Shown here: positions 5,901 to 25,490 of the stretch, piece by piece
Numbering within the stretch: position 1 is the first letter of the stretch
Layout: every line of letters starts with the position of its first letter
Source: a virus
Direction: 5' to 3' (one strand)
IMG/VR virus record: IMGVR_UViG_3300032182_000198
Location: 1-30,410 of that record
DNA: 30,410 nucleotides
The notes under the pieces: model-generated
Seen by the model: the letters and a program-made list of their open reading frames with translations, nothing else
Told to the model about the DNA's origin: nothing
Databases searched by the model: none
Position numbers and translations under genes: made by a program

Positions 5901-8900
5901 TCTGTCAGAGAAATCTTCGATGTACATCTGGAAATCTTCGGTGCGGCAGAAGAAAGCTTTATTGGCAATCCACCAGAAGAACAGATTCTGTTTACCACCA
6001 GAGGTATTGCAGTTACATCGTTCATTCCAAGATACAACGGTTCGGTCGAGATCGATATCGATGGTGGTCTTGTTGCAGAGAAAGCAACCTTCTCCGAAGT
6101 TGTTGACGGCAATCTCTTCTCCTTCATTGGTAAGGAAGAGAGAAGAGTCTACTCTTACAACAACTCCTCGATCGACTTCTTCGATACACCTGACCTCGGA
6201 TCTGTTGCTTCTGCTCCTGACTCTGGAGCGACTAATGTTGCACAGTATCCAACACAAGATTATGGTTATCTAAACAATGTTTACTATCCCGAGACGGGAT
6301 GGATCAGTCTGCAAGACGAGCTTATCGACTGGCAGTCGATTACCGAGCACACTACAAATTATCCATTCGGTCTATTCAAGATCGTATCTGGATCCGATCA
6401 AGATGTTGTTCCTGTTATCAGAATCAACTACTTTGGTTCTGGTTCTCTCTTCACGATTGGAGATGCAGAAATTGCTCTGCCAAACAAATTTACCAGTTTT
6501 GGCGAACCTATCATTGTCTATGGCGAAGCTGCCGAAAGATTCATTGCGAATCCACCAGACAAACAGGTTCTATTCGATATCACTGGTCAGGTTTCCGAAC
6601 CTATCCTCACGTTCGCAGAACAACCATTCGGAACTATCAGTATTAGTGGTTTCGTTAACCATGCGTTCACAGGTGCTATCAATCCTGGTGGTGTTATTAG
6701 CATCGATGTTGAAGCTGCGACTGCTTATACTCCAAACTTCAGTGGTTCTGGATCTATCTTCTCCAACGGAGTCCTTGGCGAAGCACTCGTCAAGACATTC
6801 CCAGAAGACGTTGTACCTGCACTGGGTGATATCCGAGAAACTCTCTTCAATGTTTCTGGTTCTGCAACACTCAAGTCCACATCATCCGAGACTGGTCTTG
6901 CACTCATCAAGCTATCTGGCGATGCAGTACCAGTTGCTACATTCGACGAAGTATTCTTTACCACAGCGAATATCTTTGGCGAAGGTCAAGACAGATTTAT
7001 TCCTTCTTACACTGGCGAAGGATTTATCTCTACTCTATCGGGCGCAGCAGAAGCGTTTGCTGCAAGTCCAGATGATCTCCAAGTTCTCTTCGACATTACT
7101 GGTAATGCCGATAAGAGATTTGTATTTGCTGCTCCACCAACCACTGGAGATATTTCTATCCTTGGTGGTATTCCAAGACCAGCAACTCTGGTATTTGCAG
7201 AATCTGGATTTGGTTCAGTCTCTATTCTTGGCGAAGTTTCCGAAAGATTTGTACCAAACTTCAATGGTTCTGGTACAATCTTCGCCGCTGGTATTTCTGG
7301 AGAGGCAATCACTGTCGATCTGCCAGCATTCACCAGAGCACATCTACAGATTTCTGGTTCCGCAGCAGAAGCATTCGTCCTCAACCCACCAGATATCACA
7401 ACAAACGTCAAGTTTGGTGGAGATGTCATATCCAGTATTGCTCGCCTCACGTTTGCAGAGCAACCAACTGTTCTTGCACAAATCTCTGGTCAAGTTGGCG
7501 AGAGTTATCTACCAAACAATGTTGGTTCTGGTTCTATTGCTTCTCGCGGTATTGGTGGAGAAGCTGTTTCCAGAAAACTACCTGCATTCCAGGCAGATGT
7601 GTTTGTTTCTGGACTTGCTGGTCAGAGCACGACAGTCAGAGAACAGTTCTTTGGATCTCTATTTACATTCAGAGGGTCCTCTGCTCCAGAACTTCTCACG
7701 TTCGCAGAACAACCAGAAGTACAAATTGCTATCTCTGGAACTGCAACCGAGAGATTTATCCCAGATTATGTTGGCGATATTCTCATTGGAACCTTCAGTG
7801 GTGCGGCAGAGTCTGTCACCATCAATCCAATCGAAAGAGAACTTCTCTTCACTGTTCGCGGTGGTATTACTTCTGTCAAGGCTACCAAGTCCGAAGTCAA
7901 GACAGTCAATGCTTCTATCTTCAGCGAAACTGTCGTACCTCTTATCACGAAGAGTTACATTGGATCTGGAACATTACATCTTTCTGGAGAATCTGTTGCG
8001 AGGTTCACTGCCACAGAAGTTGGTACTGGATTCATTTCAACTCTATCTGGCGCAGCAGAGTCGGCAACCTTCAATCCAGCAGAAGACACCGCTCTATTCG
8101 AGTTCAGTGGAATCTCAACAATCAGATCCGCTGTATCCGAAGTCAAGTTTGTTAGAACATCTGTCTTTAACGAGCCAGTTAAAGTATATGTTATCAAGAA
8201 CTTCTCTGGCGAGGGAACTCTCAATGTATCTGGAGATGGAATCATCAAGATTTCTCTCTTGCACATTGGTTCTGGATCTATCTCTACTCTATCGGGCGCA
8301 GCAGAAGCAATCACTGCAAGCCCAACAGAAGATACAGCACTGTTTGATCTCACTGGTATTGCTGATGTTCGCAAGATCAATGTTTATGGATATTATGGCG
8401 ATGACGCAGATCCAGGAACTTCTGGTTCTCTATTCGCGGTTGGCGGTGCAGCAGAATCCAGAGCAATCGTCAATACCACAGAAGGAATCTTCAATATCAG
8501 TGGTGCTGCTGCAGAAGCATTTGCAGTTCCATTTGCAGGATTTGGAAATCTGTTCGGTCTGGTATCGAAAGAAGAGAGAAGAACATTCGCTCATCAGACT
8601 ACAGGAGCATTTATTGTTTCTGGTCAAGTCGAAGACGTTCATGTCAGAGACTACGAGGGATCTGGAAGTCTCTTCTCCTTCATCGATGCGGAAGAATCCT
8701 TCACCAAGCTTGTTCCAGCAAAGACAACTATTCTCACTATTACTGGAGAAGCAGTTGTCAAGATTTCTGCAAAACACTTCGGTTCTGGAGATCTATACCT
8801 CTTCGACAGTGCTGCAGAAGCAAGAACAATTCCAGTTACTGCAGGTATCTTTGGAGAATTCTTTGGCGTTGCAAGGAGAAAGGTTACCAGAGCAGAAGTT

Positions 8901-9296
8901 GCATCTGGAACAGCAACTATTTCTGGAGAATCTGCAAATGCATTCAGCAAAGGAGCATACGCTGGATCTGGATCTACAGAAATATCTGGTCAGTCAGAAA
9001 ACTCACATGTTCGCGACTTTACTGGTCAGGTTACAGTCGATCTCGATGGTCAGGTTACGGTCATCAGAACACAGGCATACACAACCACTGGTCAAGCAAC
9101 AATCAGTGGCGATGCTTTCATCAATATTTCTCCAGCAAACCCTGGTTCTGGTACTATCTTCGTATCTGGTCAGGGCGCAGAGATTGGACCACTTGGCACA
9201 TGGGTCAGCAAAGAAGGTGTACTAACAATATTCGGAAATTCAGCAACCAGAAAGGTTTCTGTCGCTCCACAAAGAACTTACGGATGGATAATTTAA
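2904..9296 (+). CDS. Giant repetitive virion/fibre protein, 2130 aa
   Basis: A 2130-residue protein built almost wholly of short beta repeats of the type GSG-S-L-F-x-F-x-G and GAAE-x-F, recurring every 30-40 residues. Residues about 420-1245 hold larger units carrying EERRTYSYN, DYGYI, VYYPETGWIS, YPFGI, AEERF, NPPE and FSEVV..GNLFSF in fixed order with a 660-nt period. A non-repeat module at about 190-360 (IKGNRENGGEEPDFNEDLRIQF, ending DHYGLASIRYLSG) resembles a reelin-type jelly roll. No catalytic motif or membrane segment was seen. A long fibre or virion surface protein is the likely role. The ATG at 2904 follows an in-frame TAG with no clear ribosome-binding site, no late promoter and a terminator just upstream, so expression may depend on read-through. 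The protein starts directly inside a repeat (YTGEGFIG). Confidence 0.85.
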   Translation: MIFSYTGEGFIGKLRGADFGVISYSYNPSSVDELVYYDFGTLGATPTASADYGGINQETDIGAAAQADWGDIRQAPGRTRFPFGVVRLASSTTFKVKKTYVGTGQIFEFGGGRYIPLIPWIVTGTVSIRGAAAAAFGPVYRSEGLGTLQGAANAAFSTQYFGSGSILGRSFTGEAKATVYPEQPAYSDGFPIDYAYDLFTNNPRPDQPWIDTTLGTTLESGGTGEGNTGGFNIGSHIRFGGETGGTNGLRRVMLKKDLRNVDQLEIRAIKGNRENGGEEPDFNEDLRIQFASNFVDYFGDEFVVIPETSTDPNLQTIIINVPAGAQVEDSEFAIRQAQSSGTGTSFDHYGLASIRYLSGPKPVDGDTRKTLFSIGGEVSLGIILRTFGGGSLFTFGTKYATKTFAWEGSGSLFSIAGLQERNVYSYNSSSTYLYEKEDYQSVASATTEPNIDYGQIIPDDGDDVFQPFDYGDLANVVSFSDYPFGTLRLKSETTIAFQPNWIGSGTLFAFSNAITKGPQNHYGSGTFHLDGTAVIGITVGIFGGGNLFGFGGGSESIQYAGEEKQVLLEFGGVAAESAIIRDPVQGTSLSFGSKASNTRFIPRFFGNVLFDIEGGITAERSTFSEVASGNLFSFVGKEERRTYSYNTSSIDFLVRPDYGYIANAATEEVDHGTLDLVYYPETGWISTPDARLDYQYITDVATIYPFGILPLTSNTEIAFQPNWVGSGTLRITGEVFIFFPPVHEGEGSFHISGTAEERFVSDESFQTLFEFNGFAADSTSVREIFDIELHIAGAAEESFIANPPERPVLFTFVGDTITSFIPRYNGFVHIDIDGGLVAERSTFSEVVEGNLFSFVSKEERRTYHYNTSSINLFETPDYGYISQVATHTEDHGYLETVYYPETGWISLQDTLLDYEYITGHATDYPFGIFPLKGEAQTPRTRDYIGSGDLFTFGDVFVFVPPVFSGEGTFTIGGTAEERFISNEVFQTLFEFNGEVADSTSVREIFDVHLEIFGAAEESFIGNPPEEQILFTTRGIAVTSFIPRYNGSVEIDIDGGLVAEKATFSEVVDGNLFSFIGKEERRVYSYNNSSIDFFDTPDLGSVASAPDSGATNVAQYPTQDYGYLNNVYYPETGWISLQDELIDWQSITEHTTNYPFGLFKIVSGSDQDVVPVIRINYFGSGSLFTIGDAEIALPNKFTSFGEPIIVYGEAAERFIANPPDKQVLFDITGQVSEPILTFAEQPFGTISISGFVNHAFTGAINPGGVISIDVEAATAYTPNFSGSGSIFSNGVLGEALVKTFPEDVVPALGDIRETLFNVSGSATLKSTSSETGLALIKLSGDAVPVATFDEVFFTTANIFGEGQDRFIPSYTGEGFISTLSGAAEAFAASPDDLQVLFDITGNADKRFVFAAPPTTGDISILGGIPRPATLVFAESGFGSVSILGEVSERFVPNFNGSGTIFAAGISGEAITVDLPAFTRAHLQISGSAAEAFVLNPPDITTNVKFGGDVISSIARLTFAEQPTVLAQISGQVGESYLPNNVGSGSIASRGIGGEAVSRKLPAFQADVFVSGLAGQSTTVREQFFGSLFTFRGSSAPELLTFAEQPEVQIAISGTATERFIPDYVGDILIGTFSGAAESVTINPIERELLFTVRGGITSVKATKSEVKTVNASIFSETVVPLITKSYIGSGTLHLSGESVARFTATEVGTGFISTLSGAAESATFNPAEDTALFEFSGISTIRSAVSEVKFVRTSVFNEPVKVYVIKNFSGEGTLNVSGDGIIKISLLHIGSGSISTLSGAAEAITASPTEDTALFDLTGIADVRKINVYGYYGDDADPGTSGSLFAVGGAAESRAIVNTTEGIFNISGAAAEAFAVPFAGFGNLFGLVSKEERRTFAHQTTGAFIVSGQVEDVHVRDYEGSGSLFSFIDAEESFTKLVPAKTTILTITGEAVVKISAKHFGSGDLYLFDSAAEARTIPVTAGIFGEFFGVARRKVTRAEVASGTATISGESANAFSKGAYAGSGSTEISGQSENSHVRDFTGQVTVDLDGQVTVIRTQAYTTTGQATISGDAFINISPANPGSGTIFVSGQGAEIGPLGTWVSKEGVLTIFGNSATRKVSVAPQRTYGWII
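4161..6640 (+). repeat. Tandem coding repeats, period about 660 nt
   Basis: Equivalent points in the motif EERRxYSYN fall at 4161, 4815, 5475 and 6135, giving steps of 654, 660 and 660 nt. Units two and three are close at the DNA level (for example GCCGAGAGATCTACATTCTC occurs in both the 4755 and 5415 copies). The first and last units are more diverged, and the last has an insertion around the DLGSVASAPDSGATNVAQ segment. The reading frame is preserved throughout. This looks like growth by in-frame duplication inside the giant fibre gene. Confidence 0.8.
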
Positions 9297-10175: not shown

Positions 10176-13100
10176 ATGGCTGATTTCAGATTAGGTAGAT
10201 TAAAGTTTAACTGGAGAGGAAATTGGCAGGTTGCCACTTCCTACGAGGTTGACGATATCGTCAAGTATGGCGCTAATACATATGTAGCGGTTTCTAACCA
10301 CACTTCGGCATCGAATGAAACGATGTTCTATAGTGCTGATTCCACTAATTGGAATCTTCACACCGAAAGTATTGAAACTAAAGGTGATTGGCAAGCCAAC
10401 TACTGGTATAAACTCAACGATGTTGCAAAATACGGCAACAACCAGTATAGAGTAACAACACCTCACACTTCTCAAGCTGCTTTCGACGAAAGTAATTTTG
10501 AGTTGTTTGTTTCTGGTTTAGTATTTGAAGATACTTGGGCTATCGCTACCGAGTATCAACCTGGAGATATTGTTTCCTATGGTGGTTATACTTATGTTGC
10601 CACTTCGATCCACACTGGATCTACTCCAAACACTCTAGTAAATTGGGAAATTGTTACTACTGGATTTAAAGTAGTTGGTGATTGGGACGCAGGAACAGAA
10701 TACAAGCAAGGTGATGTTGTTCTCCTAGGTGGTAATTCTTACGTCGCTAAAACTACCAATACTGGTAACAATCCATCAAGCAGCCCAACTGATTGGGACT
10801 TCATTGTTGGTGGTTTCACCTGGCAAGGAACCTGGGATTCTGGTACTACGTACTATGCAGGAGATGCGGTTGTACGTAATAGCAACTCTTATATTGCTGT
10901 TGCAGAATCCACAAACCAAACTCCAGAAACTGATGCAAATGGAGATTACTGGAATACCCTCGCAGAAGGTGCCCAGTCTAACGTCCTGACAACAACTGGC
11001 GATATTCTTTATCGTTCTGGTGCTGGTGCTGCTCGTCTCCCAATCGGAACTGACGGTCAAGTTTTAGCAGTAAATTCTTCGGGTGTTCCTGTTTGGGAAA
11101 ACAATAATGTAACTGATCCTGTTTACTACGTTACAACTGAAGGTAGTGACACTAATACTGGTGAAAATATCTCTAGGGCATTCGCTTCATTGCGTTATGC
11201 ATGTGATAACATCACTGGACCAGCGTCAATCTATGTTAAGGCTGGAACATATAACGAGACTTTACCTATCATTGTTCCTGAAAATGTATCCATTATTGGA
11301 GACAACTTAAGAACTAGTGTTATCAAACCAGCTGTTGGACAAAACAGTTCGATGATTGATGTCACACTAGACACTCTAGTTGATGATGATGATATTGTAG
11401 ATGGCGAGACTGCTCAAGGTGGTAATGCTACTGGTGTCATCTATGGTCATAGAACTGTTGGTAGTGTAACTGTTCTTCAAATTCTACCTAGTTCTGGAAC
11501 TTGGGACAACTCAAGTGTCTTCCCACATAGTGGTGGAACAGCAGCTGTAACTGCGGTAACAGCTATTACCAATGAAGAAACTACTATGTTCTTCATGAGC
11601 AATAAGACGATGCTCAAAGATCTAGTTATGGATGGCATGGCTGGATTTGAAAAGTCAACCTCTGATCCAAAAGATCTCAATACAGCAACAATTAAGGGAA
11701 CGTTCTTACGTCTCAACCCTAACTCCCCAACAACCAAGTCACCTTATATCTCCCAGTGTTCTGCATTCTCGCAGACTGGTGTAGGTGCTATTGTTGATGG
11801 CAAGGTTCATGAGAAGTGGGATGGAACTGCAACTCCTTCTAATAAGTCGATGCTGTTTGACTCCTTCACTCAAATTCATGAAGGTTCTGGAACACAGTCT
11901 GGTGTTGGTTTCTTCGTCACAAACAACGGAAACTCTGAAATCGTTTCTTGCTTCACTTACTACGCACACGCATCTTACGTTGCTACTCGCGGTGGAAGCA
12001 TCAGATCTCTTGCTGGTAACTCTTCTTGGGGTACTTACGGTATTATCTCTTCTGGTTTCAACGCAGATGAGTCAACCCTCGACGGAAGAATTGATGGTGT
12101 AGAACTCAACTTTGTTGAGGGAACTAACCTATCTCCTGGTGGATCTCTTGCTCCTTTCTCTAACGGAGAGAGAGTTATTGGTGCTGTATCTGGAGCAATT
12201 GCTGAAGTTCTTTCTTCCCAAAACTCGGCAAATAAAGTTCTTGTCAGAAAACTAAAGGGAGACTTCACCCTTGGCGAAACGATCAGTGGAAACCAGTCAC
12301 TTACATCTGCAACTCTTGTAAGTAATGCAGACTTCGAGTCTGGACAGAAAGGATTTGCTCTAGTTGTTAGAGATCTCTCTGCTGCTCCAAAGCCTGGTGG
12401 TTCTATTGAATTTGTAACTGGTCCTGGTAACGCAGGTGCTGATCAGTTTACCTATGTTGTCACCAACTCTTCATACACTCCACCCGATGGTAAGGGTGAT
12501 CTGGTTGTAGTCAGAGGATCTCTTGGTTCAACCGCAGTTACTCACGACGGTCTTCTAGACATCGTAAGATATAGTGTTGGTGGATCCGCAACTCTGCAGG
12601 CAAATATTGATGCTGTCACAACAACAATTACTGTTGATACTATCAGTCCATTTACCGCAGGATCATTCCTGATTATCAATAACGAGGTAATGCAGATTGA
12701 TGCTGCAACACCATTCCCTTCAGCATCTTCTATTAATGTTGTTAGGGGTGTAGAAACATCAACAGCATCAACTCATGCTGGTAATGATACTGTTCGTGCT
12801 ATCACTGGTTCAAACCCAACTCAAACACAAAACATTGGCGATCTAGATGCTGTCTCTACTGATATTAGAGTCTTCAACGAAGATTCTATTGTTTCTGGAG
12901 ATTACATCAGACTAGATTCCGAGTTTATGCTCGTAACATCTTCAACAGAAGATCCTAACGGTGAAGTTCTTCTTACACTAGCAGAAGAGAAGCCAACTGC
13001 TTCTTATGATGGTCAGACCTTTAAGATCAGATATCTGTATTCGCAGGTTAGACTAACTGGTCATGACTTCCTGAACATCGGTACTGGTGGTAAGACAACA

Positions 13101-13472
13101 ACCAACTTCCCTGGTCTTCCAATTCAATCACCCGCTCCAGGTAATGAAGTTACCGAACAACTTCCTGGTCGTGTTTACTATGTTTCTACTGACCAAGACG
13201 GTAACTTCTCGGTTGGTAAATACTTCAGAGTTAACCAGTCAACTGGTAGCACAACTCTGAACGCTTCTTCCTTCGACCTATCTGGTCTGTCTTCACTACA
13301 ACTTGGTTCTATCGGTGCTCAAATCGGTGAAATCATTAGTGAATTCTCCTCTGATGGAACTCTATCTGCTAACAGCAACGAAAAAGTTCCTACCGAGCAA
13401 GCAGTTAAGACATACGTAGACACAGAAGTCAAAAACCTGAAGGGATACGTATTCTGGGCAGGCGCTATCTAA
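10176..13472 (+). CDS. Tail fibre/tailspike with five sugar-binding-like modules and a beta-helix
   Basis: A 1098-residue protein with an AAGGA ribosome-binding site at 10160-10164. Residues 14-263 are five similar modules (starting near 14, 69, 119, 168 and 218) of the form W..xxxY..GDIVxYGGxxYVAxxxHT. This is the Trp/Tyr plus GD pattern of chitin-binding type CBM5/12 domains. A linker follows (TTGDILYR, RLPIGTDGQVLAVNSSG, 273-303) that recurs in cyanophage fibres. From 316 a right-handed beta-helix of pectate-lyase type begins (SIYVKAGTYNETLPIIVPEN, then VSIIGDNLRTSVI). Later parts repeat linker modules (TTITVDTISPF..FLIINNEVMQI and TDIRVFNEDSI..YIRLDSEFM). The C-terminus carries the fibre motif PTEQAVKTYVDTEV. 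The likely role is adsorption to, or depolymerisation of, host surface polysaccharide. No catalytic residues can be fixed by eye. Confidence 0.85.
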   Translation: MADFRLGRLKFNWRGNWQVATSYEVDDIVKYGANTYVAVSNHTSASNETMFYSADSTNWNLHTESIETKGDWQANYWYKLNDVAKYGNNQYRVTTPHTSQAAFDESNFELFVSGLVFEDTWAIATEYQPGDIVSYGGYTYVATSIHTGSTPNTLVNWEIVTTGFKVVGDWDAGTEYKQGDVVLLGGNSYVAKTTNTGNNPSSSPTDWDFIVGGFTWQGTWDSGTTYYAGDAVVRNSNSYIAVAESTNQTPETDANGDYWNTLAEGAQSNVLTTTGDILYRSGAGAARLPIGTDGQVLAVNSSGVPVWENNNVTDPVYYVTTEGSDTNTGENISRAFASLRYACDNITGPASIYVKAGTYNETLPIIVPENVSIIGDNLRTSVIKPAVGQNSSMIDVTLDTLVDDDDIVDGETAQGGNATGVIYGHRTVGSVTVLQILPSSGTWDNSSVFPHSGGTAAVTAVTAITNEETTMFFMSNKTMLKDLVMDGMAGFEKSTSDPKDLNTATIKGTFLRLNPNSPTTKSPYISQCSAFSQTGVGAIVDGKVHEKWDGTATPSNKSMLFDSFTQIHEGSGTQSGVGFFVTNNGNSEIVSCFTYYAHASYVATRGGSIRSLAGNSSWGTYGIISSGFNADESTLDGRIDGVELNFVEGTNLSPGGSLAPFSNGERVIGAVSGAIAEVLSSQNSANKVLVRKLKGDFTLGETISGNQSLTSATLVSNADFESGQKGFALVVRDLSAAPKPGGSIEFVTGPGNAGADQFTYVVTNSSYTPPDGKGDLVVVRGSLGSTAVTHDGLLDIVRYSVGGSATLQANIDAVTTTITVDTISPFTAGSFLIINNEVMQIDAATPFPSASSINVVRGVETSTASTHAGNDTVRAITGSNPTQTQNIGDLDAVSTDIRVFNEDSIVSGDYIRLDSEFMLVTSSTEDPNGEVLLTLAEEKPTASYDGQTFKIRYLYSQVRLTGHDFLNIGTGGKTTTNFPGLPIQSPAPGNEVTEQLPGRVYYVSTDQDGNFSVGKYFRVNQSTGSTTLNASSFDLSGLSSLQLGSIGAQIGEIISEFSSDGTLSANSNEKVPTEQAVKTYVDTEVKNLKGYVFWAGAI

Positions 13473-13561: not shown

Positions 13562-13882
13562 ATGGCTTCTGGAATTTTAGGACAATCAAACCCATCGGCG
13601 GGCGTCGATACTCTGGTATACACAGTCCCAGCTGATACGGTTGCATATGCTAACCTCAATATTGTAAATCGTGGAACTGGCACTGCTACTGTAAGAGTTG
13701 CTCTTTCAGCTGCAGCGTCTCCTTTAGTTGCAGAATGGGTTGAGTATGATGCAGAAATCGCTGCTAAAGGTGTTTTAGAGAGAACTGGATTTGCTCTACA
13801 AGCAGCAAAAAAAGTCGTAGTATTTTCAGACACCGCAGATGTAAGTGTTGCAGTCTACGGCGTAGAAGAATCCACTACTTGA
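13562..13882 (+). CDS. Small virion-type beta protein, 106 aa
   Basis: A 106-residue beta-rich protein with the layout: tandem strands (DTLVYTVPADTVAYANLNIV), a small-residue turn (NRGTGTATVRVALS), a YDAEIAAKGVLERTGF hairpin and a final KVVVFSDTADVSVAVYGVEE strand pair. The same order of elements occurs twice in residues 1-225 of the fibre protein at 25491 (for example ARVIVSHKNPYPTKIRIAVG and ADGQKVFVWADRPDTNFVLEG). This single-domain gene therefore looks like the free-standing form of a reusable fibre module. There is no Cys or membrane segment. It has its own late promoter and ribosome-binding site and is followed by another promoter. The exact position in the virion is unknown. Confidence 0.75.
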   Translation: MASGILGQSNPSAGVDTLVYTVPADTVAYANLNIVNRGTGTATVRVALSAAASPLVAEWVEYDAEIAAKGVLERTGFALQAAKKVVVFSDTADVSVAVYGVEESTT

Positions 13883-13913: not shown

Positions 13914-14252
13914 ATGGGAAGAGTATTAACAGCGCCCGTCTCTAACGCAGGCGGAGGAGCAACTAGAACTGCTACCACCTCACTCACCGCAAATGCTAGT
14001 GACATTATCTTTATTGATACTGCTACTAACGCTGCAGAACTAACAATTACACTACCAGCTAACCCCGCGCTTGGCGATCGTGTTAATCTAATCGATTCTG
14101 CAGGTAACTGCAGCACGATCAAGGCTATTATTGCCAGAAACGGAAACAAAATTGCTAATGTTGCTGACGATCTAGATTTTGATATCAGTAACAACTCTCT
14201 AGAGTTAATTTATTCTGGTTCGTCATACGGCTGGTCTATTCTATCTAACTGA
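13914..14252 (+). CDS. Small virion-type beta protein, 112 aa
   Basis: A 112-residue protein. After a flexible Gly/Ala/Thr-rich N-terminus (about 1-25), residues 28-112 form a beta module (DIIFIDTATNAAELTITLPA, GDRVNLIDSAGNCSTI, NNSLELIYSGSSYGWSIL). By eye it has the same layout as the C-terminal two thirds of the Mtd-like protein at 9335: TLP strand, GD-V turn, F/LIDSA strand, N-G-x-x-I turn, then a final L/QLIY/W..G.YW strand. It is therefore probably a minor virion or fibre-associated protein. It is preceded by its own late promoter and AGGAGA site, and followed after 19 nt by the first of the cysteine-rich proteins, whose AAGGAG site lies in the gap. Confidence 0.75.
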   Translation: MGRVLTAPVSNAGGGATRTATTSLTANASDIIFIDTATNAAELTITLPANPALGDRVNLIDSAGNCSTIKAIIARNGNKIANVADDLDFDISNNSLELIYSGSSYGWSILSN

Positions 14253-14271: not shown

Positions 14272-15312
14272 ATGGCTAGTTTAAGAAATCTCCTTGATAA
14301 GCCAACAGAGGCTGATATCAGGAGAGTCCCAACATACATGGGAGACGACGGTTATCAGTGGGTCTGGAGAGGCAATCATTGTGGCCATGGTTGTGTTAAC
14401 GATGATTCATACAATCGTCACTGGCATTGTACATGCTGGTGCGTCCCCGATCTTAACATTTGTAGAATGAAGGTCGAACTATGGGGTGCTGGTGGTCAAA
14501 ATAGTAACTGGCGTTGCCGTTCTATTCCATTCCCTGGTGCTTCTGGCGAATATAAGTCACGTACTATCTGTGCCGCTAATTGGAGTGGTAGAGAAACTGG
14601 ATACTTCGATGGAATGTGTATCCAAATGGTAGCCGCACTACCACGTTGTTGCGCTAACTGTAACGGTGGATGTACGGGTTGCTGGAGTTATTTCTGTACA
14701 GAAAATAACTTCACTATGTGTGTTCATGGCGGATGTGGTGGCCAACACTGCGGTATGTGTTTCTGCTATAGCAGCAACCAGCATTATCAATGCCAGGCGT
14801 GTTATGCAATTGATCACAACATGTGCAATCACTATGATATGTCCACTTCTGGTTACAACCGCGCTTCAGAGGGTTACCCAAGAAACTGGTGTGATATTCA
14901 GAAGTGCTGTGGTGGAGATGGTAGAAATACTACAGTTCCTGGTTGTGGATGCTGCTATCACACTCCTGTTGGTTCAGCTATCGTACATAAAAATGCAAAC
15001 GATGGAAGAAATTCTTGCTCTTGGTATTGGATGACTCCATATCCAGCAGGTCTTAACTCTACTCATGGTGGTTACTCGGTACAAATTGGTAACACAGAGT
15101 GTTGCTGTTCTTGCTGGGACTGCTTTGTACACCAGTTGGCATATAGACCTGGATACTTCCCAGGTGGTTCTCCTGAAGAGTATATGGGACCAATTGGTTC
15201 TGGCGGTACGACCAATGGTATTGGGGGCGGCGACAGCGTATGTCGTTGTGGTGGTCCTGGTGCTGGCGGTGGTATCAGACTTACATTATATCCAGATACG
15301 TCGGCTGGTTGA
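14272..15312 (+). CDS. Cysteine-rich glycine-rich fibre-type protein A (37 Cys in 346 aa)
   Basis: A 346-residue protein with 37 cysteines by my count, many as CC, CCC or CxxC. It begins MASLRNLL like its two downstream paralogs. A core beginning VELWGAGG (about residues 68-75) and ending PGAGGGIRLTLY near the C-terminus is the signature of phage glycine-rich tail-fibre and adhesin domains (ELWGxGG at the start, G-[AG]-GG-[IV]R-[IL] at the end), where Gly-rich loops usually contact receptors. Here those loops are loaded with Cys, His and Asn (CVHGGCGGQHCGMCFC). There is no signal peptide or lipobox. The AAGGAG site at 14260-14265 fixes the start. Role inferred: a virion tip or surface adhesin stabilised by disulfides or metal ions. 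It is unlikely to be an enzyme. Confidence 0.8.
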   Translation: MASLRNLLDKPTEADIRRVPTYMGDDGYQWVWRGNHCGHGCVNDDSYNRHWHCTCWCVPDLNICRMKVELWGAGGQNSNWRCRSIPFPGASGEYKSRTICAANWSGRETGYFDGMCIQMVAALPRCCANCNGGCTGCWSYFCTENNFTMCVHGGCGGQHCGMCFCYSSNQHYQCQACYAIDHNMCNHYDMSTSGYNRASEGYPRNWCDIQKCCGGDGRNTTVPGCGCCYHTPVGSAIVHKNANDGRNSCSWYWMTPYPAGLNSTHGGYSVQIGNTECCCSCWDCFVHQLAYRPGYFPGGSPEEYMGPIGSGGTTNGIGGGDSVCRCGGPGAGGGIRLTLYPDTSAG

Positions 15313-15348
15313 TCCAGAGACTGATAAACTTTACGGACACTTAAAAAA

Positions 15349-16347
15349 ATGAGTAGTTTAAGAAATCTATTAGGGTCGGATCATAAATCAGATCTAAATG
15401 TATATGGACAAGTCCCTAGTCCTCTATTTGATGGAAAGGTAGTAACCTTTACTTATGATAAAGATTGCTGTTGTTATTCTTGTGGATGGGAAGCCCAGAG
15501 GAGACACATGTGGTGTGCTCCCTGTGGCGTCTGTCGTATTACATTTGAAGCGTGGGGTGGAGCAGGTGGTGCAGCTACTTCATGTTGCTGCGCTGTCTCT
15601 ACTCCTGGAACTCTAGGTGCTTATGTCCGTAAAACCATTTGTGGTTCTTTGGGTGGAAGTTGCTTCTGCATTTGCCTTGGCAGAGTAGAAGGTTCCGATA
15701 ACCAAGTTACCTCAAAGAGAGGTTGTAGAGGATGTTGGACTACTGTTTGTGGTCCAAACGTCTTCCTGTGCGCTGAAGGTGGTTATGGTGGATGTTCCAT
15801 CTGTAACCTCGTACAACCAGCAGGAACAGGTAATAATTATTTTGGAGAAAGTAGAATTGTATTGTTCGATAACAATACGCAACCAGATAACTGCGTAGAG
15901 TTTGGACCTCCTGGACACGGTGGTGACATCAATATGTGTGGTCACACAGGATTCTTACGTTACCACTGTGCATGTAATAAAGCGGTATATCAGCACATTC
16001 CTTCCCCACCATACATTGGTCACACAGGAGCACGCGCTTACGTAACATTCAAGCACTGTACAGATCAAACATGTGCTTATGCACACATGAGAAACTCCGC
16101 ATCATCATTTACAGGTGCTACTGGTGGATTTACTGTCTGGGCTAACCACGAAAGAGGATGGAGAGGATCACCTATGCCATACCCAGGTCCAAATACCACT
16201 GGCAGCTGCTGTGTTCATGGTACACCTTCTGGTGCTGGTATGGTTAGGATTACATATCAAGGTTGTCGATGTGGTTGCTACTGTGCTGATCTAGGACTCT
16301 GTACAGGAATGGCAAACTGCTCTTTCGCAAGACACATGTGTAGCTGA
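15349..16347 (+). CDS. Cysteine-rich glycine-rich fibre-type protein B (35 Cys in 332 aa)
   Basis: A 332-residue paralog of the preceding protein, with 35 Cys by my count. It opens MSSLRNLL and has the same core: FEAWGGAGGAA, TSCCC, a GxLGAYVRKTICG segment, RGCRGCWTTVCG, CAEGGYGGCSIC, a PYPGP turn and the closing PSGAGMVRITYQ. It then adds a Cys-dense tail of its own (GCRCGCYCADLGLC and later a terminal MCS). The ribosome-binding site is weak and the gap of 36 nt holds no good late promoter, so it is probably co-transcribed with protein A. Function inferred as for protein A. The C-terminal extension is the main difference. Confidence 0.8.
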   Translation: MSSLRNLLGSDHKSDLNVYGQVPSPLFDGKVVTFTYDKDCCCYSCGWEAQRRHMWCAPCGVCRITFEAWGGAGGAATSCCCAVSTPGTLGAYVRKTICGSLGGSCFCICLGRVEGSDNQVTSKRGCRGCWTTVCGPNVFLCAEGGYGGCSICNLVQPAGTGNNYFGESRIVLFDNNTQPDNCVEFGPPGHGGDINMCGHTGFLRYHCACNKAVYQHIPSPPYIGHTGARAYVTFKHCTDQTCAYAHMRNSASSFTGATGGFTVWANHERGWRGSPMPYPGPNTTGSCCVHGTPSGAGMVRITYQGCRCGCYCADLGLCTGMANCSFARHMCS

Positions 16348-16352
16348 TACTT

Positions 16353-16359
16353 CTAAATA
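16353..16359 (+). promoter_or_regulatory. Possible variant late promoter (CTAAATA)
   Basis: TTCTAAATACTATT lies five bases after the stop of protein B and 22 nt before the start of protein C. It resembles the TATAAATA octamer with one substitution. An AGGA site follows at 16368-16371. The weak match makes this uncertain. Confidence 0.35.
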
Positions 16360-16381
16360 CTATTAACAGGAATCAAAAGCA

Positions 16382-17359
16382 ATGGCAACTAATTTAAGGG
16401 AATTATTACGTAAGAAAGTACCAGGGGATTATGGTCAAGCTGCTGATTATATGCAAGCAGCAGATGGTCAAGAGGTTCATGACCTTCTACCAAAATTTCC
16501 TCTAGAAGGATACGAAACAATTTATGTTCGTACTAGTGGAGGTAGTTTCAGAACAAATCAAAGTACACACCCTGGTGATGGACGAGATGGTGTCCATAAT
16601 ACATATTATCCCGATTGGGAAATTCCTGCTGGAACAACAGATGTTATTTTTGAACTCTGGGGTGGCGGCGGTGCTGGTGCTGGCAATTGCTGCTGCCATA
16701 GTGGTCCTCCTGGAGGATCTGGTGCTTATGCATTCAAGCGTTTGATGGGTGATGAAGTAGTTCCTGGTTGCAAGTATCAAGTTTGTGTTGGTGGTCTGGC
16801 TGATAGATCATCTTCTTGCGCTGGTCGTAGAGGTTGTAAGACTTATGTAATTGGTCACAACCTAGCTACTGTTGCTAATTGTGGTTTTGATTTCTGTGCT
16901 GAAGGTGGTCATGGTGGTAATGGTTCCTACTGTTATGGTTGCTGTAATGATGGCAAAAACATTTGGGCTAGATATCGTTGCGTTGATGGTAACGGTAATC
17001 CAGAATGCCAGATGGGATGCTGTGCATTGTACTATGGTGCTGACTATGGTGCTTATGGACTTCCTGGTTATTACATGCCAAGAAGAACTGATAACAGATG
17101 CTGCAACCAGTGGGGAATTCCTTATCCTGGTGGTTTGATGAACTCCAGAGGTGGATGGATTCATATCGGTCAGGCATGTCAGGCTAGAAGTTGTGCTGCC
17201 TGTGAGCAATCAAGAGCACAAGGACAGGTTGGTGTTGGTGGTGGATACTGTCAGGCATATGTTCCTGGAATGGGTGGATCTACTGCTTACAACTGTGATA
17301 CTGGCGTATACTGTGGTTCTCCTGGAAATCCTGGAATGGTTCGTATTAGCTGGAAGTGA
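16382..17359 (+). CDS. Cysteine-rich glycine-rich fibre-type protein C (24 Cys in 325 aa)
   Basis: The third member of the paralogous trio, 325 residues with 24 Cys by my count. It starts MATNLRELL and has a longer Cys-free N-terminal region (1-90) that includes a beta strand before the core (EIPAGTTDVIFELWGGGG). The core matches proteins A and B: GNCCCHSGPPGGSGAYAF, RRGCKTYVIG, FCAEGGHGGNGSYCYGCC, IPYPGGLMNSRGGWIHIG and a closing GNPGMVRISW. The PAG.TDVxFELWGGGG opening is very close to ordinary phage glycine-rich fibre proteins, so this copy best shows what the family derives from. Function inferred: adhesin or fibre tip, with Cys supplying cross-links or metal ligands. Confidence 0.8.
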   Translation: MATNLRELLRKKVPGDYGQAADYMQAADGQEVHDLLPKFPLEGYETIYVRTSGGSFRTNQSTHPGDGRDGVHNTYYPDWEIPAGTTDVIFELWGGGGAGAGNCCCHSGPPGGSGAYAFKRLMGDEVVPGCKYQVCVGGLADRSSSCAGRRGCKTYVIGHNLATVANCGFDFCAEGGHGGNGSYCYGCCNDGKNIWARYRCVDGNGNPECQMGCCALYYGADYGAYGLPGYYMPRRTDNRCCNQWGIPYPGGLMNSRGGWIHIGQACQARSCAACEQSRAQGQVGVGGGYCQAYVPGMGGSTAYNCDTGVYCGSPGNPGMVRISWK

Positions 17360-17362: not shown

Positions 17363-17506
17363 ATGACTAACAAACAACTTAAATTAGATGTCCCAGGTCT
17401 TTTGCCTGAAAAAGAGCAGAAGACCTTTCATGAATACGGTAAATACTCACCAAAGAAAAATTATTTTAGTATAAATATTTCAAAACAAGGAAGATACAAT
17501 GGCTGA
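17363..17506 (+). CDS. Possible 47-aa peptide
   Basis: ATG at 17363 opens 47 codons ending at TGA 17504-17506, preceded by GGAAG (17352-17356) at good spacing. The product is basic and polar (MTNKQLKLDVPGLLPEKEQ ... HEYGKYSPKKNYFSINIS) with no known motif. Its second half covers the late promoter and ribosome-binding site of the next gene, and it overlaps that gene by 8 nt. It may be a real small protein or a chance open frame; the ribosome-binding site and protein-like composition tip slightly towards real. Confidence 0.4.
   Translation: MTNKQLKLDVPGLLPEKEQKTFHEYGKYSPKKNYFSINISKQGRYNG
17470..17477 (+). promoter_or_regulatory. T4-type late promoter (TATAAATA)
   Basis: An exact octamer 21 nt before the ATG at 17499, with AAGGAAG (17487-17493) as the ribosome-binding site between them. 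Confidence 0.75.
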
Positions 17507-18290
17507 AATTACCAAGCAATATACTTATAAATTACCTGATACTTATTTTGGCAATACGTGGGCGGAAGAAAAAACCGCATCCGCAATGTATACAGGTCCC
17601 CAAGAGGGATTTGTTTTTGTGAATACAGAAACTGGAGAATTATTCTTCGACGAGTCTTTCCACCCCATTTACGAAACTTGGGAGTTTACTGAAGAAGAAG
17701 TTGCTACAACTCTTCTAGAGTCACTACAATTCAGATGTGGTCCAACCAAATCTGTTGTTAGAGTAAATGCGTCTAATAGCAACGAAGAAACAATTATTGC
17801 TGCTACGATGCAAGGTATTCATCATGAAGATTGGCCAGACAAAGAATATGCTTTCCCCGATGGTCATCCCAATGCAGGAGAAGTTTATCATGTAGATCCC
17901 GATCCCCTTCCAATCAACGATTCTCTAGACGTTGAGCATGGCATCAAGTATGACTTTGAGACAGAAACTTGGAGTCTTGATGATGTTAAATTCCTTGACC
18001 CATACTGCACTGAAGAACGTCACACTTCTATGCTACAAGGTCAAAAAGAATATGCTATTGCATTAAAAGAAAGGGACGGTTGGACCGCCGAGCAAGAAGC
18101 AGAATTGGATAGATTCATCGCAGAATGCGATGCAGTTCCAACTAAATTTGCTGGCATTCACTGGTTGATGATTAAATTCCCTGAACTTGATAACAATATT
18201 TTATTCCCATCAGTAGAAGAACCAGCAGGCGATCCTGAAGATGGTGATGCCGCTGCTAACGCTGCGAATGAAGCTGCATCTGCAGAGTAA
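17499..18290 (+). CDS. Acidic 263-aa protein, possible fibre-assembly factor
   Basis: A 263-residue, strongly acidic protein. Residues 1-75 look like a small beta domain with Tyr/Phe-rich strands (GFVFVNTETGELFFDESF). A central part contains HHEDWPDKEYAFPDGHP. Residues 180-235 are helical (LQGQKEYAIALKERDGWTAE, then AELDRFIAECDAVP), and the last 30 residues are a low-complexity Asp/Ala/Glu tail. Small acidic proteins with a helical C-terminal half directly after fibre genes are often fibre-assembly chaperones of the Tfa kind, but I see no diagnostic motif. It has its own late promoter and ribosome-binding site and is closed by a strong terminator, so it ends the fibre block. Confidence 0.75.
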   Translation: MAEITKQYTYKLPDTYFGNTWAEEKTASAMYTGPQEGFVFVNTETGELFFDESFHPIYETWEFTEEEVATTLLESLQFRCGPTKSVVRVNASNSNEETIIAATMQGIHHEDWPDKEYAFPDGHPNAGEVYHVDPDPLPINDSLDVEHGIKYDFETETWSLDDVKFLDPYCTEERHTSMLQGQKEYAIALKERDGWTAEQEAELDRFIAECDAVPTKFAGIHWLMIKFPELDNNILFPSVEEPAGDPEDGDAAANAANEAASAE

Positions 18291-18378: not shown

Positions 18379-19527
18379 ATGAGACCTAAATCATTTTTTA
18401 TTAATGGTGGTGCAGGTAGAGTTCTCTGTTCTATTCCAGCATTAGAAAAATACAAGGAAGATCATCCAGAAGAAGATTTTGTAATCGTCTGTGAGGGTGG
18501 TATGGACTTGTATAGAGGACATCCAGAACTACACAAGCACTGCTTTGAATCTTGGCATAAGAATTTATTTCAAGACAAGTTAAAAGACACTGATATGGTG
18601 AGTCCAGAACCATACAGAGTCTGGGAATATTACAATCAGAAAGCAAATCTTTCTCAAGCTTTTGATATTGCTATCAACGGCAAAGGATTGAGAGATCTTC
18701 CCGCACCAACTATCAAGTTGACTAGGGACGAAAGAACTTTTGGTGCCATGTGTGTAGCAGAAGTTAGAGAGTTGACTAAAAAGAAAAAGACCGTGGTCTT
18801 CCAACCATTTGGCAGGGGTGTTCAAACTCATGGTAATGTAATTTTTGATCCTTCTGGAAGAAGTTTTGAATATCACAATGCATCAAGTATTGTCAGGAGA
18901 CTTCAGAAAAAATATTCTGTTATTTGGATGAGTGAATTTCCATTCAACTGGGAAGCAGAAGGTCTCAAAGAACCAGTTTCTGTTCCTAGAGAAATTAGCA
19001 TCAGACAGTGGGCTTCCATTATTGCAGAAGCAGATTTGTTCCTAGGGTGCGATTCTGTAGGTCAGCATATTGCTTACTCCTTTGACAAACCAGTTGTTGC
19101 TGTGATGGGATCTACATTTGGAGAAAATGTTTCTTATCCAGATCATCCAAAGTTTGATGTCCTTGACATGGGTGATGGAAAGAGAGTATACGATCCTATT
19201 AGAATCAGTATGGATGATGAAACCATGAGAACCAATGATGGTGTAATGGATATGAACGACAAAATTGAAGAAGTTATTTTGAAATCAGTTGATAAACTGA
19301 TGAATAAATACTACAGGAAGCCTGAATTTGAATACAAGTTTCCGCAAGAGGGAGGGTGTGGACCACAAGGTTGTGGACCTGAAGCACGACCAGTTCCTCA
19401 AACAAAAGTTGACTCGGGAACTCTCCCAATGCTGGGAGAAAAACCAGAACCAATCGACTTGAAAACAGTTCTTAAGAACACCGATAAACCCAATGGGTTT
19501 TCAAATAATGTAAAGACAAAGGTTTGA
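18379..19527 (+). CDS. GT9-type (heptosyltransferase-like) glycosyltransferase
   Basis: A 382-residue protein with the two-lobed layout of GT-B family 9 enzymes, which transfer ADP-heptose or related sugars. The N-lobe starts FFINGGAGRVLCSIPAL (the acceptor-side glycine loop). The C-lobe carries VVFQPFGRG, WASIIAEADLFLGCDSVGQ and then HIAYSFDKPVVAVMGSTFGE. D225-S226 and H230 correspond to the DSGxxH-type nucleotide-sugar motif of the family. The C-terminal 60 residues (GGCGPQGCGPE and a Pro-rich tail) are not part of the usual fold. It is first in a cassette that also encodes ADP-heptose synthesis, which supports heptose as the donor. The acceptor is unknown: host LPS-like glycan, or virion protein as in bacterial autotransporter heptosyltransferases. 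Confidence 0.75.
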   Translation: MRPKSFFINGGAGRVLCSIPALEKYKEDHPEEDFVIVCEGGMDLYRGHPELHKHCFESWHKNLFQDKLKDTDMVSPEPYRVWEYYNQKANLSQAFDIAINGKGLRDLPAPTIKLTRDERTFGAMCVAEVRELTKKKKTVVFQPFGRGVQTHGNVIFDPSGRSFEYHNASSIVRRLQKKYSVIWMSEFPFNWEAEGLKEPVSVPREISIRQWASIIAEADLFLGCDSVGQHIAYSFDKPVVAVMGSTFGENVSYPDHPKFDVLDMGDGKRVYDPIRISMDDETMRTNDGVMDMNDKIEEVILKSVDKLMNKYYRKPEFEYKFPQEGGCGPQGCGPEARPVPQTKVDSGTLPMLGEKPEPIDLKTVLKNTDKPNGFSNNVKTKV

Positions 19528-19531
19528 TAGC

Positions 19532-21229
19532 ATGACAAATATTTTATCAGTTGCTCGCGGTCACAACAGCAGCACAACTCTTCTTGTGGATGGAGAAATT
19601 GTATTTTATCTTGAGGAAGAACGTCTTACTAGAAACAAGTATGATGGTTCTCCTATTACAGGAATCTTAAAAGCATTTGATTATGTTGATCACATTGATC
19701 ACCTAGTCGTTTGTCACACACATCGTGATGGTCCTCAACTAGATTGGTGTGGTGAAGACTTATATGAAGGTTGGGTCAGAAAACTTTCTAGAAAGAAGTT
19801 TAAGTTTGAAACTACTTTCATCGATGTTCAACACCATCAACTACATGCAGCCGCAGGTTTTTATAACTCTGGGTTTGAAACTGCTGCTTGTGTTGTTGCT
19901 GATGGTGCAGGAAGTTTCTTGGGTCTAACAGGTGAAGCTCAAGGAGAAATTGCATATGAGTTTGAAACTATTTTCAAAGCAGGGTATCCCAATGAATTTG
20001 AAACTGTGTATAAGCATGTAGGAACTAAACATGCTTTGGGTATGCAACTTGATGACGATACTATTTTCCTGACTGAATATCCTGGTCAAACCAAGATGTA
20101 TGAGGCAGTTACTCAATACTGCGGATTCCCAGCAATCGAAGCTGGAAAGCTTATGGGTCTTGCTCCTTATGGTAAACCAAATGATGATCTACCTCCTTTC
20201 TTTAGAGACGGTTGGGGTAATAGAGATTTGATCATTCCAACATATCCTAATGCAGCAACTATTAATATTGCTAGATATCCCATCTTCCAAGAAGACGTTA
20301 AAAACTTCAAAGAAGGAGAATTTACAGATCTCCAAAAAGATCTAGCATATAAGATTCAGGAAGAAACTTCTGAAAATATGTGTATGCTGATTGAGAAAGC
20401 AGTTGAACTAACTGGAGAAAAGAACATCGTTATCTCTGGTGGTTATGGTCTCAACTGTGTTGCAAACTATAAGTATTGGCAACGCTTCCCTGACCTCAAC
20501 ATCTACTGTGAACCCATCTCACATGATGGTGGTACATCGATTGGTGGTGCAAAGTATATTTGGAACACTGCTTATGCAGAAAATCCTGGACCTTCCAAGC
20601 AAGAGTCTGTATACTATGGTCCTCAATATGATCCCGCTGGTTATGAAGCAGACCTAGAAGGTCTTGATGTAACTGATGCTACTTACGATGATGTGGCTGC
20701 ATTGATTCGTGAAGGTAATATCGTTACCATGTATCAAGGTCGTTCAGAAGGTGGTCCTCGTGCCCTAGGAAACCGTTCTATCCTATTTGACCCCACTATC
20801 AAAGATGGTAAGGATCATGTTAACGCAGTCAAGCGTCGTGAGTGGTTCCGTCCGTTTGCATGTTCAATCAAAGCTGATAAGGTTAATGATTGGTTTGATC
20901 TCGCTGGTCGTGAAGAGACTCCACACATGATGTACGCAGTTAAGTGTCATGAAGGTGTTGAAGAGAAGATTCCTTCAGTTATTCACGTAGATGGTACATG
21001 CCGTATCCAGACTGTTACTCCAGAGCAAAATGAGCATTACTATAATCTCATTGACGCCTTTGAAAAGTTGAGTGATACTCCCATCTTGTTCAATACATCA
21101 TTCAACCTTGGTGGAGATCCTTTGGTAGAAACTATTGAAGATGCAGTTGATACTCTTCAACGCAGTGATATTGAATATCTTTTCTTACCCGAGATCAATA
21201 AACTAGTTTACATTAAGAATGAAGACTAA
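19532..21229 (+). CDS. Carbamoyltransferase 1 (NodU/CmcH/TobZ family)
   Basis: A 565-residue enzyme, normal length for the family, expected to transfer a carbamoyl group from carbamoyl phosphate, through carbamoyl-AMP, to a sugar hydroxyl. The N-terminal Kae1-like half has the HHQLHA metal-binding motif (101-106), VVADGAGS, GKLMGLAPYG and VISGGYGLNCVANYKYW. The C-terminal YrdC-like half has GRSEGGPRALGNRSILFDP (from 403), WFRPFACSI, HVDGTCRIQTV and LFNTSFNLGGDP. All key motifs look intact. AAAGG at 19518-19522 serves as the ribosome-binding site, four bases after the GT9 stop. Its stop overlaps the start of the second carbamoyltransferase by one base. The acceptor is probably the sugar made or attached by the neighbouring genes. 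Confidence 0.92.
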   Translation: MTNILSVARGHNSSTTLLVDGEIVFYLEEERLTRNKYDGSPITGILKAFDYVDHIDHLVVCHTHRDGPQLDWCGEDLYEGWVRKLSRKKFKFETTFIDVQHHQLHAAAGFYNSGFETAACVVADGAGSFLGLTGEAQGEIAYEFETIFKAGYPNEFETVYKHVGTKHALGMQLDDDTIFLTEYPGQTKMYEAVTQYCGFPAIEAGKLMGLAPYGKPNDDLPPFFRDGWGNRDLIIPTYPNAATINIARYPIFQEDVKNFKEGEFTDLQKDLAYKIQEETSENMCMLIEKAVELTGEKNIVISGGYGLNCVANYKYWQRFPDLNIYCEPISHDGGTSIGGAKYIWNTAYAENPGPSKQESVYYGPQYDPAGYEADLEGLDVTDATYDDVAALIREGNIVTMYQGRSEGGPRALGNRSILFDPTIKDGKDHVNAVKRREWFRPFACSIKADKVNDWFDLAGREETPHMMYAVKCHEGVEEKIPSVIHVDGTCRIQTVTPEQNEHYYNLIDAFEKLSDTPILFNTSFNLGGDPLVETIEDAVDTLQRSDIEYLFLPEINKLVYIKNED

Positions 21230-22920
21230 TGAATACGTTGTCAGTTAATTTGACCCATGACGCATCACTAACACTGATGCGTGATGGTGATATCATTCTC
21301 CATCAAGTAGAAGAAAGAATCGCACATAAAAAATTTGCTCAAGATCTTTATTATTCTTTTGATAAATTAGAAGAGTATTTTGATAGCATTGATCGTTTGG
21401 TTTATGCTGGAATATGGAATGGATTTAATGATTGGAGAAATGTAACTCGTTATCTAGAATATAAAGGTTATCCAATCGAAAGTAATGATTACAGTATGAT
21501 TGATGGTGGACAAGACCACCATCTTTTACACGCCATGTGTGGTTACTTTTCATCACCGTTTTCACAAGATGCAGCAATATTAGTTCTTGATGGAGCTGGA
21601 TCTGATCTTACAATTAATTCTAAAGAAAATGAAAGTATCTTTACTTATGATAAAGGTCGTGTAGAGTGCGTCTATAAAACCGTTGTTGGTTTTCATGGAA
21701 TTAAAGATCCGTTAACAGAATACGAACCTCGTATTGGCGTTGGTATGATGTATAATGCCATTACAGAATATATTGGATTTGGATGTGAGCAAGAAGGCAA
21801 AACTATGGGATTGTCTGCATATGGAACAAACACATCTAATCTAAATGATTTTATGAGTATAGAGACTGGTGCTAATGCTGAATTATTTTTACTAGTAACG
21901 TCTGGTAGAATAGGAATTACTGGAATCAATAGTCCAGTTGGTTGTAAATTCAATGTTGGACCAGCGTTCAAAGTGTTGCCAAAAATTGATTTTGATCCAG
22001 ATGATCAAAATACTATAGGCACACCAACATTTAATTTAAGATCCAAAATAGCAGGTAAAGCTCAACAAGACTTTGAAGAATATGTTTATCAGATGATCTT
22101 GAAAACAATTGATCTTACTGGTAAGAAGAATATTGTTCTTTCTGGTGGTTGCTTTATGAACTGTGTATCTAATTACAAGTTGATTAAAAGGCTACCCAAA
22201 GATGTAAATCTGTATGTAGATCCTCTGTGTGGTGATGTTGGAATTTCTTTAGGAGGTGCTTTATATTCTGTATTGAAAGATAAAAAAATTCCCAGAAGAT
22301 ATTCACCCTCGTATCTAGGATCTCCACTAAACTATGATTATTCTTTGAAGGAAGGTCAAACGGAAGAAGATACCACTCCTCAAAAAATTGCAGATCTTTT
22401 ATCTTCTGGCAATATTGTTGCTATTGCTCAAGGAAGAGCAGAGTCTGGAAAAAGAGCTTTGGGTAACAGATCTATTCTTTTTGACCCATCAGTAAAAAAT
22501 GGAAGAGAGATAGTTAACAGAGTAAAGAAAAGAGAAAACTGGAGACCGTTCGCTGGCACTGTAATGTTAGAACATGCAAGAGAATGGTTTGATATGGATA
22601 AACTAGAAGAAAGTCCTCATATGACTTATGCCATTGATGTTTGGGATGAGAAAAAAGAACTTATTCCATCCATCACTCACGTCAATGGCACTTGTAGAAT
22701 TCAAACAGTATCAGAAAAACAAAATAAGAACTACTATGATCTTATTTCGGAGTTCTATAAAATTACAGGAACTCCCATTGTTTTGAATACGTCTTTTAAT
22801 CTTGCTGGTGATACTATTGTAGAAACTATGCAAGATGCTCTTAAGACTCTTGAGAATAGTGAGATTGAATATTTGTATTTACCAGATATTATGAAACTAA
22901 TTCATGTGCCAAATAAATGA
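21229..22920 (+). CDS. Carbamoyltransferase 2 (NodU/CmcH/TobZ family)
   Basis: A 563-residue paralog of the preceding enzyme with the same domain order: THDASLTLMRDG, DHHLLHA (96-101), VLDGAGSD, GKTMGLSAYG, VLSGGCFMNCVSNYKL, then GRAESGKRALGNRSILFDP (from 402), NWRPFAGTV, HVNGTCRIQTV and LNTSFNLAGD. The usual EGGPRALGNRS stretch reads ESGKRALGNRS here, a change next to the carbamoyl-phosphate/AMP site. Its DNA is visibly more A/T-rich and prefers AGA for Arg where copy 1 often uses CGT. The pair therefore do not look like a recent duplication. The 1-nt overlap upstream and 4-nt overlap downstream indicate tight coupling. Confidence 0.92.
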   Translation: MNTLSVNLTHDASLTLMRDGDIILHQVEERIAHKKFAQDLYYSFDKLEEYFDSIDRLVYAGIWNGFNDWRNVTRYLEYKGYPIESNDYSMIDGGQDHHLLHAMCGYFSSPFSQDAAILVLDGAGSDLTINSKENESIFTYDKGRVECVYKTVVGFHGIKDPLTEYEPRIGVGMMYNAITEYIGFGCEQEGKTMGLSAYGTNTSNLNDFMSIETGANAELFLLVTSGRIGITGINSPVGCKFNVGPAFKVLPKIDFDPDDQNTIGTPTFNLRSKIAGKAQQDFEEYVYQMILKTIDLTGKKNIVLSGGCFMNCVSNYKLIKRLPKDVNLYVDPLCGDVGISLGGALYSVLKDKKIPRRYSPSYLGSPLNYDYSLKEGQTEEDTTPQKIADLLSSGNIVAIAQGRAESGKRALGNRSILFDPSVKNGREIVNRVKKRENWRPFAGTVMLEHAREWFDMDKLEESPHMTYAIDVWDEKKELIPSITHVNGTCRIQTVSEKQNKNYYDLISEFYKITGTPIVLNTSFNLAGDTIVETMQDALKTLENSEIEYLYLPDIMKLIHVPNK

Positions 22921-25434: not shown

Positions 25435-25440
25435 GGCAAG

Positions 25441-25448: not shown

Positions 25449-25465
25449 AGAATAACACGAAACTA

Positions 25466-25473: not shown

Positions 25474-25490
25474 CTGCAGAAGGAAAGGAC

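Follow-up and report, generated by a model that had tools for sequence, protein, structure and literature searches.

Three tandem phage genes encode a conserved cysteine-rich variant of a probable tail-fibre adhesin fold

Why should three neighbouring glycine-rich proteins of a virus, of a type that is ordinarily poor in cysteine (Cys), be loaded with this residue? The question is raised by a 30.4 kb fragment from IMG/VR (IMGVR_UViG_3300032182_000198, positions 1 to 30,410; the window hereafter, meaning the whole stretch of DNA analysed), in which three tandem genes, P1, P2 and P3 (the trio, or cassette), stand out by their composition. The trio is genuine, conserved and widespread, a Cys-rich version of a known tail-fibre fold that is undescribed in the literature that we searched, where no paper on these Cys-rich proteins was found. 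The three genes, with their lengths in amino acids (aa) and the E-values (E) of their profile matches, are the following:

14272..15312, plus strand: P1, predicted Cys-rich glycine-rich tail-fibre adhesin, paralogue 1; 346 aa, 37 Cys; phrog_4205 E 5.7e-28; own orthologue clade; placed by alignment
15349..16347, plus strand: P2, predicted Cys-rich glycine-rich tail-fibre adhesin, paralogue 2; 332 aa, 35 Cys; phrog_4205 E 6.6e-36; AlphaFold model
16382..17359, plus strand: P3, predicted Cys-rich glycine-rich tail-fibre adhesin, paralogue 3; 325 aa, 24 Cys; PF21722 Gly_rich_2 E 3.5e-9; phrog_4205 E 2e-56

The Cys counts of P1, P2 and P3 (37/346, 35/332 and 24/325; 10.7, 10.5 and 7.4%) are exactly those given in an earlier note made from the sequence alone, and all remaining coding open reading frames (ORFs) of the window contain 0-2.4% Cys; that note had likewise called almost all the other proteins poor in Cys. 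A 2130-aa protein encoded upstream of the fibre genes (2904-9296) has no Cys at all and contrasts strikingly with the trio. All three proteins matched the profile phrog_4205, whose function is unknown; P3 also passed the curated cut-off of PF21722 Gly_rich_2 (37.4 bits vs 24.3), which P1 and P2 did not match. The clusters CC, CCC and CxxC to which the earlier note drew attention are present, but together with CxC they occur at roughly the frequency expected from composition, except for CC in P3 (5 observed vs 1.75 expected, p ~0.02).

The same arrangement was recovered in cultured phages. Among the records searched, the closest cultured relatives of the window were the Synechococcus phages S-CAM3 and S-CAM1, in which the three genes recur in unchanged order and with the same Cys load (36/329, 35/302 and 24/300 Cys in S-CAM3; 36/311, 31/310 and 25/299 in S-CAM1), all annotated publicly as "hypothetical protein". 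Within the complete genome of S-CAM3, these three rank highest in Cys among ORFs of at least 150 aa, where the median is 1.0%. Since orthologues in other phages retain both the frame and the Cys, the reading frames of the trio are real, and a sequence artefact or frameshift could be discarded. More distant relatives were found in P-SSM2 (PSSM2_304 and PSSM2_306, with 36 Cys each), S-SSM7 (_114 to _116) and Sf-FS3 (_97 to _99). A profile search of IMG/VR with a Cys-rich query yielded 78 loci; these loci and the phage loci fetched first contained 210 ORFs with the ExWGGGG motif, all of them Cys-rich (5.7-12.4% Cys once near-duplicates were removed) and mostly arranged as tandem pairs or triplets. 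The ordered cassette as such is present in S-CAM1, S-CAM3 and about 75 IMG/VR loci, which rules out an oddity of a single contig. A single-copy relative (L178, 3142-4200; 39 Cys/353 aa) contains the most Cys-dense domain that we saw (14.6%). The "adhesin" block of S-PM2 was rejected as a relative, being made of large Cys-poor proteins that do not match Gly_rich_2; the S-PM2 genome yielded no proteins of the Cys-rich kind.

Because this initial search had used a Cys-rich query, we ran a control blind to Cys: a search for DNA that encodes E-x-W-G-[GA]-G-G-[GA]-G gave a sample of 83 domains. Their Cys content was bimodal, since 55 of them had no more than 3.1%, 28 had at least 6.2% and none fell between. 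Over the sampled domain, the sum of glycine (Gly) and Cys was nearly the same in the Cys-rich group (31.5%; Cys 11.1, Gly 20.4) and the Cys-poor group (32.2%; Cys 0.4, Gly 31.8). At single columns of the Cys-rich class, Gly was under-represented where Cys had been lost, so that a column by column replacement was rejected and the exchange is one of class-level composition only. The nearest families, PF21722 Gly_rich_2, phrog_4205 and phrog_35878, likewise set the trio apart, most sampled ExWGGGGG domains being Cys-poor unlike the trio. The statement that ordinary relatives of these proteins are Cys-poor was thus borne out, both by the 55 of 83 motif domains and by PSSM2_126 of P-SSM2, which has the same Pfam domain with 2 Cys/485; as P-SSM2 encodes members of both kinds, the Cys load belongs to the class and not to the phage. 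Near-intermediate domains were rare: two ORFs of L143 had 2.2 and 3.1% Cys, and L167 and one protein of L159 had 6.2 and 6.5%, the last two with 25-26% Gly. They are possible steps between the two classes.

We aligned sister pairs under a scoring matrix whose neutral value for Cys gave this residue no special advantage. At mean identities of 85, 68 and 53%, Cys was retained at 98, 91 and 77%, the top value of each band. Among 34 orthologues of each paralogue, 14 (P1), 14 (P2) and 11 (P3) columns had at least 95% Cys. The random variation of Cys among close homologues that, according to the earlier note, would speak against a structural or metal-binding role was thus not what we observed. In a FastTree tree, cassette positions 1, 2 and 3 formed separate orthologue clades in S-CAM-type phages; judging from these sequences, the three paralogues therefore appear to be old and to have maintained their order.

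The fold was approached with AlphaFold2 models of P2 and P3 built with window and IMG/VR sequences. The P3 model reached a predicted local distance difference test score (pLDDT) of 78.5 and a predicted template modelling score (pTM) of 0.81, and the P2 model 69.9 and 0.73. Searching solved structures by sequence gave no match. By structure, both models were most similar to the tail fibre gp24 of cyanophage Pam3 (7ypx), with a Z-score (Z) of 16.8 over 192 aa at 3.0 Å for P3 and of 14.5 over 194 aa at 3.4 Å for P2, followed by the Bxb1 tail tip and the tumour necrosis factor (TNF)-like plus glycine-rich domain of ALK/LTK, whereas unrelated folds scored Z ~3. These models, together with the chaperone-family gene next door and the fibre genes upstream (see below), lead us to read P1-P3 as tip adhesins: very probably, the trio are tail-fibre tip adhesins that represent a separate, Cys-rich form of a known fold. 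The structure prediction proposed in the earlier note thus sustained its fibre-type adhesin reading.

Pam3 gp24 is a virion protein that forms a trimer and has a dedicated chaperone, gp25 (PDB 7YPX, 7YFW; PMC9608196), and its glycine-rich domain has 12 motifs; their distal ends vary and, according to the authors, may bind the receptor (PMC9608196). In common with it, P2 and P3 have the TNF-like plus glycine-rich fold according to the model comparison, and P1 according to the alignment; in both systems the first loop is of GGGG type and a tail-fibre chaperone gene, a probable one in the window, is linked in the genome. There are also differences. Residues 91-276 of gp24 contain no Cys while the trio has 7-11%, its glycine-rich domain is 39% Gly against 14-19% in the trio, Pam3 has one fibre gene of this type and the window three, and gp24 starts with a long N-terminal helix, in a trimerising domain, where the trio has a short segment, modelled in P3 and P2 as a short helix only, followed by low confidence. 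PSSM2_304 and L178 have long N-termini that look like coiled coils by eye. The extracellular domain of ALK/LTK has an overall fold similar to that of the P2/P3 models (Z ~7.5-9.5) but belongs to an animal ligand-binding receptor and is a weaker match than gp24; we claim no homology. The gp38 tip adhesin of T-even phages and S16 resembles the trio in placing a glycine-rich lattice at the fibre tip and a small protein after the fibre gene, and differs from it by a beta-helix middle domain; no gp38 structure was among the fold matches listed for the P2 and P3 models.

The models also show where the Cys lie. They occur in both strands and loops (4 Cys/77 strand residues vs 20/248 others in P3; 10/80 vs 25/252 in P2), with no clear enrichment in the glycine loops of either model. 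This bears on the suggestion of the earlier note that the adhesins could be loaded with metal, possibly iron, and on the wider alternative that Cys bind Zn, Cu, Fe or iron-sulfur (Fe-S) in a metal-loaded fibre tip. The very high density of Cys, the presence of CC and CxxC, and the 14, 14 and 11 fixed Cys columns agree with such a role, and odd Cys numbers would be tolerable at metal sites. However, the Cys are scattered over strands and loops and do not form compact clusters, and CC, CxC and CxxC, considered as signs of a metal site, were rejected as near chance, CxC and CxxC not exceeding composition. The many histidines (His) of the trio on which the note had also remarked do exist (13, 12 and 7 in P1, P2 and P3) but are not conserved: His was retained at 78, 53 and 28% at the three identities given above, which places it among the least conserved residues, and a conserved HxH or His metal motif was not found, HxH being present in 16 of 131 sequences. 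Metal binding by the tip thus appears unlikely and the iron idea unsupported, while a metal site made of Cys only is possible.

The genes that surround the trio strengthen the fibre assignment. Four of them are relevant here:

10176..13472, plus strand: long tail fibre, 1098 aa; phrog_9851 tail fiber E 0; five CBM_5_12 repeats
13562..13882, plus strand: small fibre-linked protein, 106 aa, no Cys; phrog_11338 tail fiber 1.4e-12
13914..14252, plus strand: small fibre-linked protein, 112 aa; phrog_8859 4e-20; phrog_972 tail fibre proximal subunit 5e-7
17499..18290, plus strand: probable tail-fibre assembly chaperone, 263 aa, 3 Cys; phrog_9740 E 4e-31

The 1098-aa tail fibre is likely the shaft that bears the adhesins. 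S-CAM1, S-CAM3 and P-SSM2 all keep the gene of the 106-aa protein upstream of the cassette, and that of the 112-aa protein is syntenic in S-CAM1 and S-CAM3. The window chaperone candidate did not match PF16778 directly, and its assignment therefore rests on its family: the phrog_9740-family members of S-SSM7 and Sf-FS3 match PF16778 Phage_tail_APC (1.1e-9 and 5.3e-11) and also phrog_4912 "tail fiber assembly". An ORF of at least 140 aa adjoining the cassette was found in 69 loci, and in 68 of them a gene of this family came next; nine further loci offered enough sequence but yielded no such ORF. In S-SSM7 and Sf-FS3, one gene directly follows the chaperone (L086 10784-11443; L087 12345-12977), annotated in Sf-FS3 as a prolyl 4-hydroxylase-type Fe(2+)/2-oxoglutarate (2OG) dioxygenase and in S-SSM7 as "minor coat protein"; the two proteins are similar by eye and could be a candidate modifying enzyme beside the Cys- and Gly-rich fibres.

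Past the chaperone, the window (18379-25506) encodes a glycosyltransferase-9-like protein, two carbamoyltransferases, a cytidylyltransferase-like protein, a PfkB sugar kinase, a cupin and an epimerase, and much of this sugar-gene block also lies downstream of the adhesins in S-CAM1, S-CAM3, P-SSM2, S-SSM7 and L178. It may modify the host lipopolysaccharide (LPS) or the fibres. The linkage of the trio to carbamoyltransferase, heptose and glycosyltransferase genes could suggest that P1-P3 are secreted or intracellular Cys-rich proteins and not virion adhesins, for instance modifiers of the host envelope near LPS/heptose genes. We regard this as very improbable, since the models match tail fibres, tail-fibre genes precede the trio and the chaperone family follows it, and the T4-like capsid protein Gp23 is encoded in 14 of 20 tested contigs carrying the Cys-rich class.

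What, then, would the Cys do in a tail-fibre adhesin? The recurrence of the trio with Cys as its best-kept residue suggests fibres held by disulfides. A precedent for the mechanism is found in phage Milano, whose tail and receptor-binding complex are crosslinked by conserved Cys in disulfides (PMC10811340). Conserved Cys are common to both systems, but in Milano they also occur in sheath, tube and baseplate, the proteins are unrelated to the trio, and the disulfides have been observed there while they are inferred here. Disulfides in the trio are plausible given the extreme conservation of Cys, its two-state distribution, an extracellular life in oxic water and the Milano precedent, and our analysis inclines us, with moderate confidence, towards disulfide bracing.

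Several observations weigh against this interpretation or do not help it. Gains and losses of Cys pairs, analysed as Fitch co-changes against a branch-weighted null, gave no pair above the null in any paralogue or in the whole family, although the power of the analysis was low; weak candidates in P2, such as 41-237 and 107-134, did not exceed it either. Among 123 proteins, 67 had an even and 56 an odd number of Cys, and close relatives frequently differed by one; fixed intramolecular pairs can therefore not account for every Cys. At least the variable ones would lie outside such pairs, and bonds between chains would permit odd counts. The annotation of S-CAM3 includes three glutaredoxins and no thiol oxidase, so that oxidation would need to be spontaneous or host-made. 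Finally, we found in the literature no virion proteomics of a phage known to carry the cassette; the virion proteomes of S-CREM2 (PMC10665884) and S-SM1 (PMC3037559) come from phages whose genomes were not checked for the cassette.

The frequent gains and losses of single Cys and the missing covariation of pairs would also agree with Cys that are free thiols acting in host attachment, by thiol-disulfide exchange or covalent capture of a surface partner. P2 and P3 have a CCC run in their first glycine loop, and loops of this type end, in Pam3, in the tip proposed to bind the receptor (PMC9608196). The run is conserved, in contrast to the hypervariable distal tips of Pam3; surface thiols are expected to oxidise in oxic seawater, and no host partner is known. 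Free thiols seem to us a rather remote explanation, a little behind metal binding.

On balance, we favour as the overall explanation that the trio are chaperone-folded Cys-rich tip adhesins whose disulfides form probably after lysis. P1, P2 and P3 would be ancient paralogous adhesins at the tip of the tail fibre of a marine T4-like phage, their folding helped by the adjoining chaperone. As in Pam3 gp24, the TNF-like beta-sandwich of each would carry a lattice of glycine-rich loops; each would also have a short segment at the N-terminus for docking, about one third of the glycine content having been swapped for cysteine in this class. Most likely, the conserved Cys would be joined by disulfides within and between chains, so that both the loops and the oligomer are locked, and their oxidation would probably take place when the virion moves from the reducing cytoplasm into oxic water. 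The Cys content and its conservation, the cassette, its linkage to the chaperone family and the model match of P2 and P3 are established by the analysis; we infer for the trio a place in the virion, an oligomeric state, docking on the fibre, disulfides, the timing of their oxidation and a role in receptor binding. More tentatively, and with considerable doubt, the Cys-rich proteins could represent a discrete and widespread class of redox-matured receptor-binding proteins of T4-like phages, folded reduced in the host cytoplasm and oxidised on release into oxic water, in which a disulfide network partly replaces the polyglycine lattice.

Photosystem proteins were encoded in 1 of 20 tested contigs carrying the Cys-rich class, and the class is present in large T4-like contigs, L142 (198.7 kb) and L072/L147 (165 kb), in which no photosystem genes were detected. 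Because of these large contigs, the hosts of the Cys-rich class may extend beyond cyanobacteria, and beyond marine picocyanobacteria, as far as gene content can tell. Receptor binding by cyanophages is poorly understood, and the genes of this kind that cultured phages such as S-CAM1 and P-SSM2 carry have no annotation beyond hypothetical; we can now identify them as likely determinants of host range, with a fold and a chaperone. If their Cys do form disulfides, the trio would exemplify phage adhesins whose maturation depends on the change in redox conditions at lysis, which could be tested in existing isolates.

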